This document shows, piece by piece, positions 12,417 through 38,783 of a DNA stretch of 64,000 nucleotides (position 1 is the stretch's first letter; the number at the start of each line of letters is the position of its first letter). The stretch is from assembly GCA_019058445.1 (NCBI GenBank), contig JAHPZA010000010.1, positions 186,001-250,000 on the forward strand, given 5' to 3'. The notes beneath the pieces were generated by a model. The model was not told the origin of the DNA and did no database searches. It saw only the letters and a list, made by a program, of their open reading frames with translations. Source of the DNA: Promethearchaeota archaeon (GTDB taxonomy: Archaea; Asgardarchaeota; Lokiarchaeia; Sigyniarchaeales; SOKP01). A program made the position numbers and the translations under genes.

Positions 12417-14126
12417 TTATACCTTAGTAATTAAATAATTTCCTAACGCAATTCCATCCAATTTAGAATTATTAAACACCCATAATGCATTTTCTGGGGA
12501 ACATACTATAGGAAAACCATGCAAATTAAAACTTGTATTTAATACTGCTCCAATTCCAGTAATCTTTTGAAATTCCGAAATTAATTTATAATATGAGGGA
12601 TTCCAACTTTCCTTTAATACTTGAGGTCGACAAGTTTCATCATATGGATGAATTGCTGCAACTATTTCATCTCTTTTAGGTGTAGTATCAAATGCATCAA
12701 TCATATAAGGCGCGAATACTGGATCATTAAGATAATCATTTACCCTTTCAAATAAAATTGATGGAGCAAAGGGCATCCACCATGTTCGGTGTTTGATCAT
12801 CTCATTAATTTTTTTTATTTGTTTAATGTTACTAGGATCTGCAATGATGGACCGATTTCCCAATGCTCGTGGACCCCATTCCATTCTTCCAGAAAATCTG
12901 GCATATATTTTACCTTTTGCAATAGATTCTGCTAAAAATTCCCCAATATTTTGCATTTTTTCATAGTGATATTTATTCTTATATGTCTCTAGGTACTTTT
13001 CTATAAAATTATTATCATACTCAGGGCCAAAATAAAGATCTCTTAATTTTTTTTTTTCATACTTTATTTTCTTAAATCTACAATATTGATAATAAGCTTC
13101 TAAAGCCGCTCCTAAAGAAGTACCTCCATCTCCCGCAGCAGGATATACGAAAATATCTTCAACTTCTTTTAATTCACGTAATTTTTTATTTGCTTTAACA
13201 TTTAAAAATACACCCCCACTAGCAGCAATTTTATGAATATCTGTCTTTTTTATCGCATTTTTAACCCATCTTGTTAATAAATCTTCGAAATGTTTTTGTG
13301 TTGCAGCTGCTAAATTATCGAACCTTTGTTCTTTTAATTTTTTCTGAAGATATCTTGACATTGCGTACATCCAATGTAACGTATTATTCTTAAATTCTAA
13401 TGGATTTCTTTTATCAATTTGAATGATTTTATTAATAAGATGAATTGAATATTTATAGTTGCCATAAGGAGCAAGCCCCATTAATTTATATTCATCATTA
13501 TCCCTCTTCATTCCTAAGTACCCCGTCATTTCAGTATAGAATCTACCTAAACTGTTAAAGAAGTTAGATTCAGCAATAGTTTTTATCTTATTATTATAAC
13601 CAATCGAAACTGTTGCGCTCTTTCCATCTCCCGCAGCATCTGCTGTGAAAATTAAAACTTTTTCATCCTCATCCCATGGGCAGTTTCTATAAGCACTGCT
13701 TGCATGAGCTAGATGATGATCAATGAAAACGATTTTATTATTTGAAAGTCCAAAATTATTTAAAATTTTTAATAAATCTTTTTGTTTTCTCATACGTCTT
13801 AAGATTATATTAAAAGCTTTGTTTACTGGTTTTAATTGAATTATTTTAGCAGATCTTGAATAAGCTTTAATATAAAATGGGACTGGAATTTCACTAGGAT
13901 TATATGTTCTTACTAAACTTACAATTCCAATTAAATTTATATCTTCAGGTTTAATAGAAAAATTCTTGAAAAGGTAATTAAGCGAAATAGAAGGGACTCC
14001 TGAATAATGTTTGATATTTCTCAATCGCTCTTCCTCAACTGAAAAAATAACATTACCATTTTCCAATAAAGTAATAGAAGAATCATGTCCATCATTAATA
14101 GCAAGGATATAATTTTTAGATTTCAT
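12417..14126 (-). CDS. NodU/CmcH/TobZ-family carbamoyltransferase
   Basis: ILAINDGHDSSITLLENG, IDHHLAHASSAYRNCPWD, ASGGVFLNVKANKKL, GPRALGNRSIIADP signatures. Confidence 0.93.
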   Translation of the reverse strand: MKSKNYILAINDGHDSSITLLENGNVIFSVEEERLRNIKHYSGVPSISLNYLFKNFSIKPEDINLIGIVSLVRTYNPSEIPVPFYIKAYSRSAKIIQLKPVNKAFNIILRRMRKQKDLLKILNNFGLSNNKIVFIDHHLAHASSAYRNCPWDEDEKVLIFTADAAGDGKSATVSIGYNNKIKTIAESNFFNSLGRFYTEMTGYLGMKRDNDEYKLMGLAPYGNYKYSIHLINKIIQIDKRNPLEFKNNTLHWMYAMSRYLQKKLKEQRFDNLAAATQKHFEDLLTRWVKNAIKKTDIHKIAASGGVFLNVKANKKLRELKEVEDIFVYPAAGDGGTSLGAALEAYYQYCRFKKIKYEKKKLRDLYFGPEYDNNFIEKYLETYKNKYHYEKMQNIGEFLAESIAKGKIYARFSGRMEWGPRALGNRSIIADPSNIKQIKKINEMIKHRTWWMPFAPSILFERVNDYLNDPVFAPYMIDAFDTTPKRDEIVAAIHPYDETCRPQVLKESWNPSYYKLISEFQKITGIGAVLNTSFNLHGFPIVCSPENALWVFNNSKLDGIALGNYLITKV

Positions 14127-14269
14127 AACTTATCCGAAATTTTTCTTTGAATTTAAATAAATATTTTCTATTGTTAAAATATTTCGAAAAACAAAACCTT
14201 CAAGATAAATAACAATGAGACTATAAAAAAATTGCTTGCTCAGATTTTACTACCTAAATCTTTCAATTG

Positions 14270-15322
14270 TTAATTTATAATTAGATTTTTTATACCAATT
14301 ATTAATCCTAACCCCCAAGCGAATCCACGCATATGATGGAGCAATATTGTTTCTAAAAATGTTTTAATTTTATTTTTTTTAGAATAAGCAGCAGTTTGAT
14401 ATGCTGGAATAAGTCCATATATAAATAATAAAATGATTGTTATTAATATAAGCCAAAACCAAATAAATATTAAATTATTAAAAAGTAAATTCGAGAATAG
14501 GGGTAAAAGAAAAATATTATATAACAAAAACATGATAAATAACAAAATTCCTGAAGACATTAAAAATAAATAAAGAAAAGGTAAAATGTATATATCATAA
14601 GGAAAATACCAAGTAGAATTGAATTTATTACGGAGAGAAGTTTTAAAATGATGCTTTGAAACTCTACAATATGCCGTTCCGTCTCGGATACCTTTACGAA
14701 TCAATCTACAAAAACCACCATCTGCTACATGATATGTTATAGCATCATTTACTTTAAGGATTTTATAACCATTTTCAATAGCTATAAATGATATTTCAGC
14801 ATCTTCTCCGTAGACCCATTCAGGATCAAATCCATTAATTTCGTCTAATAGTTTTCTTCGAAACATTGAACAAGGACCACCAGCCCATACAACCTCCTCC
14901 TTTTTAATATTATTGTATCGTCTTGAGAATTCGAGACTTCTATAAATAGAACTAAATCTATCGTCAGTTCTAAATATTGTTGTACCCCCAACTATACCAA
15001 CTTTATCATCTCTAAAACCTTTTAATAGATTTTTAGTCCATAATGGATCTAATTCACAATCTCCATCCGTAAATGCTATAAATTTACCTGATGAGTTTTT
15101 ATAACCGAGATTTCTTGCATTGGAAATTCCTAATTTTTCTTTTATTAGTTTAATGGGATATTTTCTAATTATTTCAACGGTTCGGTCTTGAGAACCTCCA
15201 TCTATTACAATTATTTCTTTATTAGGATAGTCTTGATTTATAATTGACTCAATTGTCATTCCAATAGTATTCTCCATGTTTTTAACGCCAATTACATAAC
15301 TAACTAATGGTTCTTCGCTTAT
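14270..15322 (-). CDS. GT2 glycosyltransferase with C-terminal TM segments; proposed start at ATA 15322..15320
   Basis: ORF-track start at 15277 cuts off the first GT-A strand; upstream in-frame codons give ISEEPLVSYVIGVKN before MENTIGMTIESIINQDYPNKEIIVIDGGSQDRT; in-frame TAA immediately precedes ATA. Confidence 0.8.
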   Translation of the reverse strand: MSEEPLVSYVIGVKNMENTIGMTIESIINQDYPNKEIIVIDGGSQDRTVEIIRKYPIKLIKEKLGISNARNLGYKNSSGKFIAFTDGDCELDPLWTKNLLKGFRDDKVGIVGGTTIFRTDDRFSSIYRSLEFSRRYNNIKKEEVVWAGGPCSMFRRKLLDEINGFDPEWVYGEDAEISFIAIENGYKILKVNDAITYHVADGGFCRLIRKGIRDGTAYCRVSKHHFKTSLRNKFNSTWYFPYDIYILPFLYLFLMSSGILLFIMFLLYNIFLLPLFSNLLFNNLIFIWFWLILITIILLFIYGLIPAYQTAAYSKKNKIKTFLETILLHHMRGFAWGLGLIIGIKNLIIN

Positions 15323-26274: not shown

Positions 26275-27021
26275 TCATTTGACTTTATTAATTTTTTGCG
26301 ATTTTATAAAATTGCTTGATTTTAATAATGTATCAAATTTACCTGCATCGGACCAAAACCCCTTAATAATTACTGATTTTGTTTTTCCATTTTTAATATA
26401 ATAATTATTAACATCTGTAATTTCTAATTCATCCCGTTTAGAATAACCAATCTCCTTATTTACCTTTTTTATCACATTAAAGATATTCTCATCATAAAAA
26501 TACAATCCTGTAACAGCGTAATTCGTTTTAGGCGATTTTGGTTTTTCCTCAATTGATTTTATTGTTCCGTCCTCATTTAATTCTGCAACACCAAATCGTT
26601 CTGGATCTTCTACTTCTTTTAGAAATAAATAACATTCGAAATCAGTTGAATTTTTAAATTCATAAAGTTCAGAATCAAATGAATCTTCGAAGATATTATC
26701 TCCTAATATTACTGCTACTTTATTTCCTTCTATTATCTTTCTGGTAAGGAACAATGCTTCGGCAATTCCGCCTGCTCTTTGCTGATACACGTAATTAAAA
26801 TGTGCCTGAAATTCGCTACCATCTCCGAGTAATCTGATAAAATCTCCTACACTTTCACCTCCTAAAACAATGGTGATATCGGAAATTCCTGAATTCGTCA
26901 GAGTTCTTATCACTTTATATATCATTGGCTCATCATAAACCGGTAATAAATGCTTATTCGTGACATTTGTTAATGGTGATAGTCTTGATCCAGTTCCACC
27001 TGCCAAAATAACGCCTTTGAT
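26275..27021 (-). CDS. rmlA: Glucose-1-phosphate thymidylyltransferase; proposed start at ATC 27021..27019
   Basis: AGGTGSRLSPLTNVTNKHLLPVYDEPMIYKVI; the conserved [M]KGVILAGGTG beginning is encoded upstream of the ORF-track TTG start as ATC AAA GGC GTT ATT TTG. Confidence 0.9.
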   Translation of the reverse strand: MKGVILAGGTGSRLSPLTNVTNKHLLPVYDEPMIYKVIRTLTNSGISDITIVLGGESVGDFIRLLGDGSEFQAHFNYVYQQRAGGIAEALFLTRKIIEGNKVAVILGDNIFEDSFDSELYEFKNSTDFECYLFLKEVEDPERFGVAELNEDGTIKSIEEKPKSPKTNYAVTGLYFYDENIFNVIKKVNKEIGYSKRDELEITDVNNYYIKNGKTKSVIIKGFWSDAGKFDTLLKSSNFIKSQKINKVK

Positions 27022-35267: not shown

Positions 35268-36065
35268 CTATAGTGCTCGTCGTGAGAAAAATGTAAAATA
35301 AATACCATAAGCACGTTCATAAATTCTATTAAGAAATCCAATTTTCGGAATTATCATTTCAAAAAGATACCATATACTCCATAATTGCCTTATACCTTTT
35401 TCTCGTATGTAATATTTTTTATTTTGGGGCAGAGTCCTTGCAGCAAATATATTAAGTTCGTCGAATTGCTTTTTTGAGATAAATTCACTACTTTTTTTTT
35501 TAAAAAATGCTACAAATATCATTCTGCTTTTAGGTATAGGAGGATTAAAAGCATTCTGTATTTTTAACATTATGACTTTATAATCACACAATCTTGCTAA
35601 TCTAGAAAAAAATTCCTTTGGGTAATAATAAAGACAATGATCTGGGAAATTATTAGGGAGCGGGAGAGTATGAATCATAATACCATTAGCTTTACACATA
35701 TCATGTACATTTTTAAAAACCTGAAATTGATTTTCAACATGTTCTGACGTTCCATAATCAGTGATTAATTGAAATCTATCTATTAAAGATTCAGGAACAG
35801 GAAAATTTAAGTCTACAACTAAAGATCCAAACATTCCATTTAAATCTAAAGATACATGTTCTAATACTTTCTTTATTTCAGTATAATATTTTTTTGCTAC
35901 TATATGACTTTTATAAAATATTTGATCGCCAAGTTCACACATTCGCACATCTTTCCACTTAAGATTTATTATTTTAAGAACCTTATCTTGGAAAGCAAGG
36001 ATATTATATGTTAAACCCATTCTCAACATCCCTTTTATTTTATAAGTGAAATAAGAATTTCGCAA
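35268..36065 (-). CDS. SAM methyltransferase-like protein
   Basis: VDLNFPVPESLIDRFQLITDYGTSEHVENQFQVFKNVHDMCKANGIMIHTLPLPNNFPDH. True start may be internal (MGLTYNIL). Confidence 0.55.
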   Translation of the reverse strand: MRNSYFTYKIKGMLRMGLTYNILAFQDKVLKIINLKWKDVRMCELGDQIFYKSHIVAKKYYTEIKKVLEHVSLDLNGMFGSLVVDLNFPVPESLIDRFQLITDYGTSEHVENQFQVFKNVHDMCKANGIMIHTLPLPNNFPDHCLYYYPKEFFSRLARLCDYKVIMLKIQNAFNPPIPKSRMIFVAFFKKKSSEFISKKQFDELNIFAARTLPQNKKYYIREKGIRQLWSIWYLFEMIIPKIGFLNRIYERAYGIYFTFFSRRAL

Positions 36066-37165
36066 ATCTTTATAATATCTTGATCTTTCAACCCACTATA
36101 TAAAGGAAGACATAAAATTTGGGTGGTTATCTTTTCGGCAATAGGAAGTTGATAATCTCTATCCTTTTTAAAGAACAAATAATCTGTACATAAGGGATAG
36201 AAATATTTTCGTGTAAAAACATTATATTTTTTAAGCAAATCATAGACTTTATCTCTATTATTTCTTGATTTTTTTTCATCAATTAATAGAGGAAAATATT
36301 GATAATTGTACATGACATTCTGTTTCTCAACATTAAACTTTAATCCATCAACATTTTCAAGATTTTCTCTGTAAACTTGAGTTAAATGTTTTCTCTTTTT
36401 AATCTCATCTTCAACAAGTTGTAAATTTAAAAGTCCTATCGCTGCCTGTAATTCGTTTAATTTACCATTTGTTCCGGGCAGAAGGATTTCATATTCATCT
36501 TTAGTTCCATATCCGAAATTTTTTAAAAGATACAAGAGTTCCTTTAATTCAGAATTATTGTATGTAAGAGCTCCACCTTCTATAGTATGAAAGATTTTAG
36601 TAGCATGGAAACTAAACATACTAATATCTCCATAATTTCCAATCCCTTTATTTTTAAAATTAACACCAAAACAGTGAGCAGCATCATATATAACTTTAAC
36701 TTGGTAATTTTTGGCAATCTTCTCAATTTTTTCAACGTCACATGGATTACCAAATACATGAACCCCAAGTATAGCAGATGTATTAGGAGTTATCAAATCT
36801 TCGATTGCATCACTGTTGATATTAAAATCATCTGGATTAATGTCGCAAAAAATAGGCTTTAAATTCTTTTGAAATAACGAAGTTACGGTCGCGGGAAATG
36901 TGAAAGGAGTCGTGATTACTTCTCCTTTTAATTCAAGTGCTTGTAATGCTATTTCTAAAGCAATTGTACCATTACAAAAAAGAGTGAGATTATCCACATT
37001 TAAATATTTTGTAAGTTCTGTCTCTAACGCTTTATGTTGATTTCCGTGATTTGTGAGCCATTTAGATTCCCAAATCTCATCAATCTTTTTATAAACTTGA
37101 ATTAATGGAGCTAAAACAGGTCGAATTATATAAATTGGTTCTTTAAAAGGTTTAATTTTAGTCAA
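36035..37165 (-). CDS. DegT/DnrJ/EryC1-family PLP aminotransferase
   Basis: FCNGTIALEIALQALELKGEVITTPFTFPAT, VKVIYDAAHCFGVNFKNKGIGNYGDISMFSFHATKIFHTIEGGAL. Confidence 0.9.
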   Translation of the reverse strand: MTKIKPFKEPIYIIRPVLAPLIQVYKKIDEIWESKWLTNHGNQHKALETELTKYLNVDNLTLFCNGTIALEIALQALELKGEVITTPFTFPATVTSLFQKNLKPIFCDINPDDFNINSDAIEDLITPNTSAILGVHVFGNPCDVEKIEKIAKNYQVKVIYDAAHCFGVNFKNKGIGNYGDISMFSFHATKIFHTIEGGALTYNNSELKELLYLLKNFGYGTKDEYEILLPGTNGKLNELQAAIGLLNLQLVEDEIKKRKHLTQVYRENLENVDGLKFNVEKQNVMYNYQYFPLLIDEKKSRNNRDKVYDLLKKYNVFTRKYFYPLCTDYLFFKKDRDYQLPIAEKITTQILCLPLYSGLKDQDIIKICEILISLIK

Positions 37166-37535
37166 GCAGCAAAACCATTTTCGATAAAAAAGTCTTTCGT
37201 CAAAATTATTCTATAGAATTATTTAAAAAATATTAAATTTATTTAATTTATTCATACTTCTAATTTATTCGATTTTCTGATTCAAATAACTATTTATTAC
37301 TTCCATTATTAATGTTAATTAAGCTTTTATTAATATGAAGTTTTAGATGGTATTAAATTAATATTTAAAGTCTGATACTAATAGTATTAATAGAAAAGAT
37401 AAAATTAAAACGAATTTTAGGAGATTACGTTAACCGTATTATTTTAGATAATAAAATGGGTCTCAATCTTATACGAAAAATTAGAGAAATCAGAAGATAT
37501 GGTTTTATTTAACAATTGGTTAAGAGGGGAAAAGA

Positions 37536-38783
37536 ATTAAAGTTGCGATAATTCAACCTTATTATTTTAATATTTGGGAAGCAATTGGTCCTGCGTATAT
37601 AATTTCTTATTGTAAGAAAAATTATGAGGGTGCCCTCGATTTTAAATTCTTTCAAAGCTATTTCGATTCTGATAGTTATATCATAGAAAATTGTAAAGAT
37701 TGTGATATTGTCGGCTTTTCTTGCACTTCTCCAACTTTTAAGCATGGCGTAAAATTAGCGAATAACTTAAAAGAGTTAAATCCAAACATTAAAACTGTAT
37801 TTGGTGGATATCACGTATCTGCATTAAAAGATCTAATTACAGATGAATGTATCGATCAAATTGTTGTCGGAGAGGGAGAATATGCCTTTTTAGACATTCT
37901 TAATGGTAATAATAATCATATTGTATATGGAAAGCGTCTAGATTTCAAGGAACTTCCCTGGCCTGATCGGGATGCAATTAAAAACGAAAGAACTATTAAT
38001 CTTTGTGAAGAAATGGCGAATCAACGGATAACTGGATTTCAAGCAAATAGAGGGTGTCCTTTCAGATGTACATATTGCGCTGAAAGATGTATTACCGGTA
38101 TTATTAACAGGAATAATCCGATTAGATCGAGGAATTTGCCCGACCTTTTAAATGAAATTGAATTTGTTGAGAATAAATATAATTTGGACTATTTTAAATT
38201 TGTTGATGCAACTTTTGATGTATCATCGAAATATGTTACTGATTTTTGCAAGGAAAAAATAAAAAGAGATTTGACTATTGAATGGGAGTGCATGATTCAT
38301 GCTAGTATTGCTAAAGAAGAAATGTTTCCATGGTTAAAAAAGGCAAATTGCAATCAAATCAATGTTGGCTGTGAGAGTGGTAGTCCAAAGATTTTAAAAG
38401 AAATTAGAAAAGGGGTTTCAGTCGATAAGATAATTAAAGTTTTTGATTGGGGTAAAAAATACGGAATAAAACGACGAGCATTTTTTTTAATAGGTACTCC
38501 TTCAGAAACATTAGAGGATATTAAACTAACAGAGAAGCTTATAGAAAGAATAGATCCTGATTTTTTAGGTGTTACAATATTATGTCCATACCCTGGAAGT
38601 GATTATTATAATCATGAGAAAATGAAAGATATTGATTGGTCCTTTACTGATGAGTATTCTAATGATTTTTGGCATACAGAATATTTTTCCAATCAAGATC
38701 TAAAAAATATTCAAAAAGAGTTAACAGACAAATTTAAAGAAAGATTAGTCTGGCACCAAACAAAAATATTAGGAAATGAATGA
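37536..38783 (+). CDS. B12-binding-domain radical SAM protein; proposed start at ATT 37536..37538 (415 codons)
   Basis: ORF track begins at 38013, but the same frame is open upstream: IKVAIIQPYYFNIWEAIGPAYIISYCKKNY...VGFSCTSPTFKHGVKLANNLKELNPNIKTVFGGYHVS...IVVGEGEYAFLDIL; radical SAM motif CPFRCTYCAER. Confidence 0.88.
   Translation: MKVAIIQPYYFNIWEAIGPAYIISYCKKNYEGALDFKFFQSYFDSDSYIIENCKDCDIVGFSCTSPTFKHGVKLANNLKELNPNIKTVFGGYHVSALKDLITDECIDQIVVGEGEYAFLDILNGNNNHIVYGKRLDFKELPWPDRDAIKNERTINLCEEMANQRITGFQANRGCPFRCTYCAERCITGIINRNNPIRSRNLPDLLNEIEFVENKYNLDYFKFVDATFDVSSKYVTDFCKEKIKRDLTIEWECMIHASIAKEEMFPWLKKANCNQINVGCESGSPKILKEIRKGVSVDKIIKVFDWGKKYGIKRRAFFLIGTPSETLEDIKLTEKLIERIDPDFLGVTILCPYPGSDYYNHEKMKDIDWSFTDEYSNDFWHTEYFSNQDLKNIQKELTDKFKERLVWHQTKILGNE

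Follow-up and report, generated by a model that had tools for sequence, protein, structure and literature searches.

In this archaeon, the gene encoding a B12-binding radical SAM protein at 37536 very probably starts at AUU, as one instance of a trait of the archaeon's family, in which AUU, AUC and AUA codons (AUH) placed by a Shine-Dalgarno (SD) motif serve as starts in addition to AUG, UUG and GUG. This conclusion draws on comparisons between the 64,000-nucleotide stretch of DNA that was analysed (the window) and other genomes, and supports the original prediction that translation begins at an ATT. Two lines of argument favour AUH initiation. Firstly, homologous starts alternate between NTG and ATH codons across many species, several of which have no alternative start. 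Secondly, the use of AUH is strongly linked to the presence of an SD motif.

The reading frame of the radical SAM gene, on the forward strand, follows a TAA stop codon at 37521-37523 and is open from 37524 to 38783; as had been predicted, it is open upstream to this stop, and it is coding from its first codons. From 37524 it reads GAG GGG AAA AGA ATT AAA GTT GCG, placing the ATT at 37536-37538, and there is no ATG, GTG or TTG between the upstream in-frame stop and the conserved N-terminus. The first such codon in the frame is the internal ATG at 38013-38015, the start chosen by ordinary ORF callers, which lies 159 codons past the ATT, in agreement with the claim that this number of codons had been cut off in the ORF track. 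The proposed full coding sequence (37536-38783) spans 415 amino acids, in which a B12-binding domain precedes a radical SAM domain, and its translation contains CPFRCTYC, an example of the CxxxCxxC motif. The cobalamin-binding domain predicted for the upstream part was recovered as a match to PF02310 at residues 54-125 (37683-37898, E=8.9e-14), wholly upstream of 38013, meaning it would be lost if translation started there. The radical SAM domain (PF04055) covers residues 176-339 (38049-38540, E=1e-20). The protein is probably made from the ATT at 37536, with a methionine at its N-terminus.

A scan of public genomes identified three close relatives of this gene, with products 67, 65 and 55% identical over their whole length, in metagenome-assembled genomes titled Ignavibacteria, Nitrospirae and Deltaproteobacteria (L021-L023), all of which are bacterial. 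Similarity to all three begins at the window's ATT-AAA, exactly where each of them begins ATG-AAA, and the homologue alignment thereby points to the same apparent start codon as the original prediction. Of the 163 residues before 38013, 108 (66%) are identical to the L021 orthologue. In related genomes, identity to the best matches is only around 30%, making it likely that the gene is bacterial in origin and was probably acquired by transfer; its start would then probably have changed from ATG to ATT after the acquisition. The window's gene resembles these B12-dependent radical SAM proteins of polysaccharide clusters both in its whole-length identity and in adjoining a DegT aminotransferase gene, as also seen in L021 and L022, but differs from the bacterial copies in their use of an ATG start. 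The DegT gene lies at 36035-37165 on the reverse strand in the window, and is on the same strand as the orthologue in L021 and L022.

This gene had been described as the third AUH start in the window, and the other two were also upheld: an ATC at 27021-27019 and an ATA at 15322-15320, both on the reverse strand, and each with GGTGG or AGGTG 5-6 nt upstream. The ATC would start a gene for RmlA (glucose-1-phosphate thymidylyltransferase; 26275-27021) that lacks a canonical start ahead of its conserved N-terminus, the first TTG of the frame falling inside the nucleotide-binding LAGG motif. It lies 5 nt after an SD-like GGTGGA (27032-27027), its isoleucine aligns with Met1 of the solved RmlA 4ho0 and with the methionine at chain residue 25 of 3hl3, and the PF00483 match runs from profile position 1. 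The ATA would start a gene for a family-2 glycosyltransferase (14270-15322), being positioned directly after an in-frame TAA and 6 nt after the SD motif AGGTG (15333-15329), and the PF00535 match begins at residue 9 (profile position 2). The first ATG comes only after that point, within the first conserved segment. The SD-like stretch predicted upstream of the radical SAM start was also found, as AAGAGGGG (37522-37529), but it is weaker than had been implied: its single exact core match is the 4 nt GAGG (37524-37527), with 8 nt between its end and the ATT. Hence an SD is present at the usual spacing, but it is among the weakest of the AUH-start set, in which most others extend to at least 5 nt.

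The wider sample comprised 1.26 Mb of the window's genome (G000), a draft of 10 contigs that is 92.6% complete, and parts of the relatives G004, G022 and G030; its gene content included Arf- and Ras-like GTPases, a ubiquitin-conjugating E2-like protein and an archaeal aIF1, which make it very probable that the source is an Asgard archaeon. Simple tallies of the codons opposite a homologue's ATG suffer from noise, as N-termini shift, and the analysis retained only genes in which no canonical start precedes the conserved region. Homology identified more of these in the sampled sequence, with ATT, ATA or ATC at the position of the homologue's ATG (or TTG). A first SD-anchored enrichment over all candidate codons was dropped as powerless, TTG itself being raised just 1.4-fold. 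The test that replaced it, which did not depend on homology, used genes in which the upstream in-frame stop overlaps the SD match, such that the start must be just downstream, and counted the codons at SD spacing in those with no canonical start there. ATH codons were observed 14 times against 5.9 expected in G000, three against 1.2 in G004 and nine against 1.8 in G022, all members of the family, and twice against 0.4 in G030, from outside it. Pooling the three family genomes, ATH accounted for 26 of 83 codons, compared with 8.9 expected (p=3e-7). A small E. coli control (nine codons) contained no ATH, with 0.7 expected. The excess amounts to around 17 of 172 such genes, which as a rough figure is one in ten.

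Start codons were then compared across species through pattern searches in which the first codon could be any of the 12 DTN codons. Across 79 genomes of the order, the E2-like gene began with ATG in 26 cases, TTG in eight, GTG in two, ATT in 12 and ATC in 11, and GTT, GTC, GTA, TTT, TTC and TTA were never found at this position in these genomes; inside genes of the sampled sequence, the same six make up 51% of DTN codons. This tally excludes seven matches that were visibly other genes (TTTCGAGAAAAATGG and the like, plus the match in G033). NTG and ATH starts were exchanged within genera: in one (g8) there were four ATT, 11 ATC and one TTG, in another (g5) two ATG and one ATT, and in a third (g3) there were two ATT and one ATG. 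A canonical start before the conserved region is impossible in G022, where the frame reads TAA-AAA-ATT, and the frames of 170-171 codons for this 169-codon gene in G017, G009, G018 and G007 imply the same. Among 18 matches, from 16 genomes, to the gene for an N-terminally extended Arf-like GTPase, 16 began with ATT, ATA or ATC, the others being one ATG and one ACG; in G000, this gene lacks any canonical start ahead of the conserved region. The ACG is at G010:C72:22105, where nearly all relatives have ATH. Among strict matches to RmlA-type genes, ATH was the start in 11 of 14 from the window's family, compared with one of 18 from the rest of the phylum (p=3e-5), a contrast that also serves as a control for the pattern-search method. 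The start of a GPN-loop GTPase was mostly ATT or ATA in the family.

The link to the SD motif is evident in the AUH starts fixed by alignment, all 12 of which have an SD of at least 4 nt, as against 68 of 176 ATG starts (p=2e-5); an SD of at least 5 nt precedes eight of the 12, and 35 of the 176 (p=0.001). The low rate at ATG starts fits the reported rarity of SD motifs in Lokiarchaea (PMC7531240, PMC12993045). The simplest model consists of two modes of initiation, in which AUG would be sufficient alone, and an SD would let the weaker UUG and AUH codons serve. In the SD-led mode, the motif would position the ribosome such that the ordinary initiator Met-tRNA is held over the weak codon and initiates at AUH. 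The anticodon of this tRNA (CAU) would read AUH with a third-base mismatch, with the protein still beginning with methionine, and discrimination against these codons has presumably been relaxed in the lineage.

Archaea are not known to have IF3, and use aIF1. The Sulfolobus aIF1 has been reported to discriminate against non-canonical starts (PMC6237735). Inspection of the initiation factors had been proposed as a check, and here the aIF1 of G000 (L024; G000:C10:8878-9090) proved divergent: of the 58 Asgard genomes in which SUI1 had a match, G000 scored lowest, and conserved residues are changed (CACGGT to LGSGGV, and LQGDH to VRGDH), but the comparison showed no substitution recognised as a known start-stringency mutation. 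A tie between this divergence and relaxed start discrimination is suggestive only. Tentatively, and with rather more doubt than confidence, it can be proposed that the family has lost strict third-base discrimination, such that AUN behind an SD is a regular start in around a tenth of SD-led genes, with AUH fixed across genera in some of them, such as the Arf-like GTPase; the machinery would have changed through a divergent aIF1 or a modified initiator tRNA, and a separate AUG mode would operate mostly without an SD.

An unusual initiator tRNA, its anticodon altered or modified such that AUH becomes a cognate start, is an unlikely explanation, although the best placed of the alternatives; the protein might then begin with isoleucine instead of methionine. 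The occurrence of AUA, AUU and AUC alike would suit such a tRNA, and neither ARAGORN with introns allowed nor a pattern search found the initiator tRNA in the sampled sequence, but the continued majority of ATG, TTG and GTG at the E2-like start is as expected with a normal initiator. Without introns, ARAGORN identified no tRNA in 0.8 Mb of the sampled stretches, and with them three in the 1.26 Mb of G000; nearly all of the tRNAs detected in the sampled genomes are intron-bearing. The window's genome gave no match to the archaeal SSU rRNA model.

Translational coupling to a short upstream frame is also possible at 37536. The 13-codon out-of-frame ORF MVLFNNWLRGEKN (37499-37540, forward strand) ends in a TAA at 37538-37540 that overlaps the ATT by one base (AUUAA, 37536-37540), and ribosomes terminating there could restart at the AUU, a scheme in keeping with several other AUH genes being directly behind a stop codon. 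However, this mini-ORF is without homology support, and the genes in the enrichment test were chosen for having a stop nearby, meaning their stop proximity is a selection effect; hence coupling is judged improbable as the explanation, by a little more than the unusual tRNA. Initiation placed by the SD continues to be the preferred reading, and two further proposals can be largely set aside. A sequencing or assembly error, or a private ATG to ATT loss-of-function mutation in the radical SAM gene alone, is very improbable. The ATT is one base from the orthologues' ATG, and the assembly is a draft, but there are three AUH-start genes in the one window, and the change from G to H at the third start base is seen again at matching start positions in genomes of several genera that were assembled independently, so a read error at 37536 itself is unlikely to matter. 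Errors in ATG would equally generate AAG, ACG, AGG and CTG, none of which had an excess comparable to that of ATH. Least probable of all is that the 256-aa product given by standard ORF callers is the only one made, from the ATG at 38013, since the 159 open upstream codons, which would then be a decaying remnant, retain their identity to the L021 orthologue and the B12-binding domain, and the product would keep the radical SAM half alone, starting around 12 residues before that domain.

AUU start codons are known from E. coli infC, which encodes IF3, and pcnB, both of which similarly combine AUU initiation with an SD motif. These are a handful of genes, with infC autoregulated through IF3, whereas AUH starts here involve many unrelated genes in many species, and the genes concerned (encoding a radical SAM protein, RmlA, a glycosyltransferase, an E2-like protein and an Arf-like GTPase) are not of the infC-type autoregulatory kind. 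The start list of NCBI translation table 11 includes ATT, ATC, ATA and CTG; AUH starts are therefore formally allowed, but treated as exceptional, and common gene finders use only ATG, GTG and TTG. The GTC start codon of Streptomyces sigR (PMC5472188) likewise represents a tolerated third-base deviation from NTG, although in a single regulatory gene of a bacterium. The archaeal starts named in a review are AUG, GUG and UUG, rather than AUH (PMC7531240); UUG and GUG are likewise near-cognate and function whether or not an SD is present, but involve a change of the first base only. A search of open-licence papers outside bioRxiv found none that describes AUH starts in Asgard archaea, an absence that is weak evidence. 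Rare bacterial genes are known to initiate at AUH, and routine use of such starts across an archaeal family was not found in the literature searched. This archaeal group probably comprises close relatives of the ancestor of eukaryotes. If AUH starts are as common as proposed, these archaea would have an appreciable fraction of their genes annotated too short or missed, including the eukaryote-like ubiquitin E2 and Arf-like GTPases used in arguments on eukaryote origins. They would also provide a natural system for studying the evolution of start-codon stringency, which is kept by eIF1 and aIF1, and cultured Asgard archaea would allow a direct test of the claim, provided that one of the cultures is a member of the window's family.

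Several start positions in the wider dataset were of other kinds. Some AUH genes carry an in-frame GTG within the SD (AGGTGA), which is a candidate alternative start. In the gene for a FAD-linked oxidase (L042, approximately 12755-14323, reverse strand), a CTG aligns with the homologues' ATG, 5 nt after AGGTGA, and again an in-frame GTG inside the SD is the alternative. The GPN-loop GTPase position is TTT in four genomes of one genus (G024, G109, G114 and G117), where the sister G103 has TTG, meaning this position is not exclusively NTG or ATH everywhere; either UUU is used as a start in these genomes, or the start is elsewhere. In family f17, nucleotidyltransferase-like genes start with ATT, ATC or ATA in nine genomes (G075, G124, G128-G130, G135, G137, G139 and G140), mostly followed by K-A-F-I-L-A-G-G, and with GTG in G069. 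This may mean that a second family of Asgard archaea uses AUH starts, or that the codon concerned is internal to the gene in f17.
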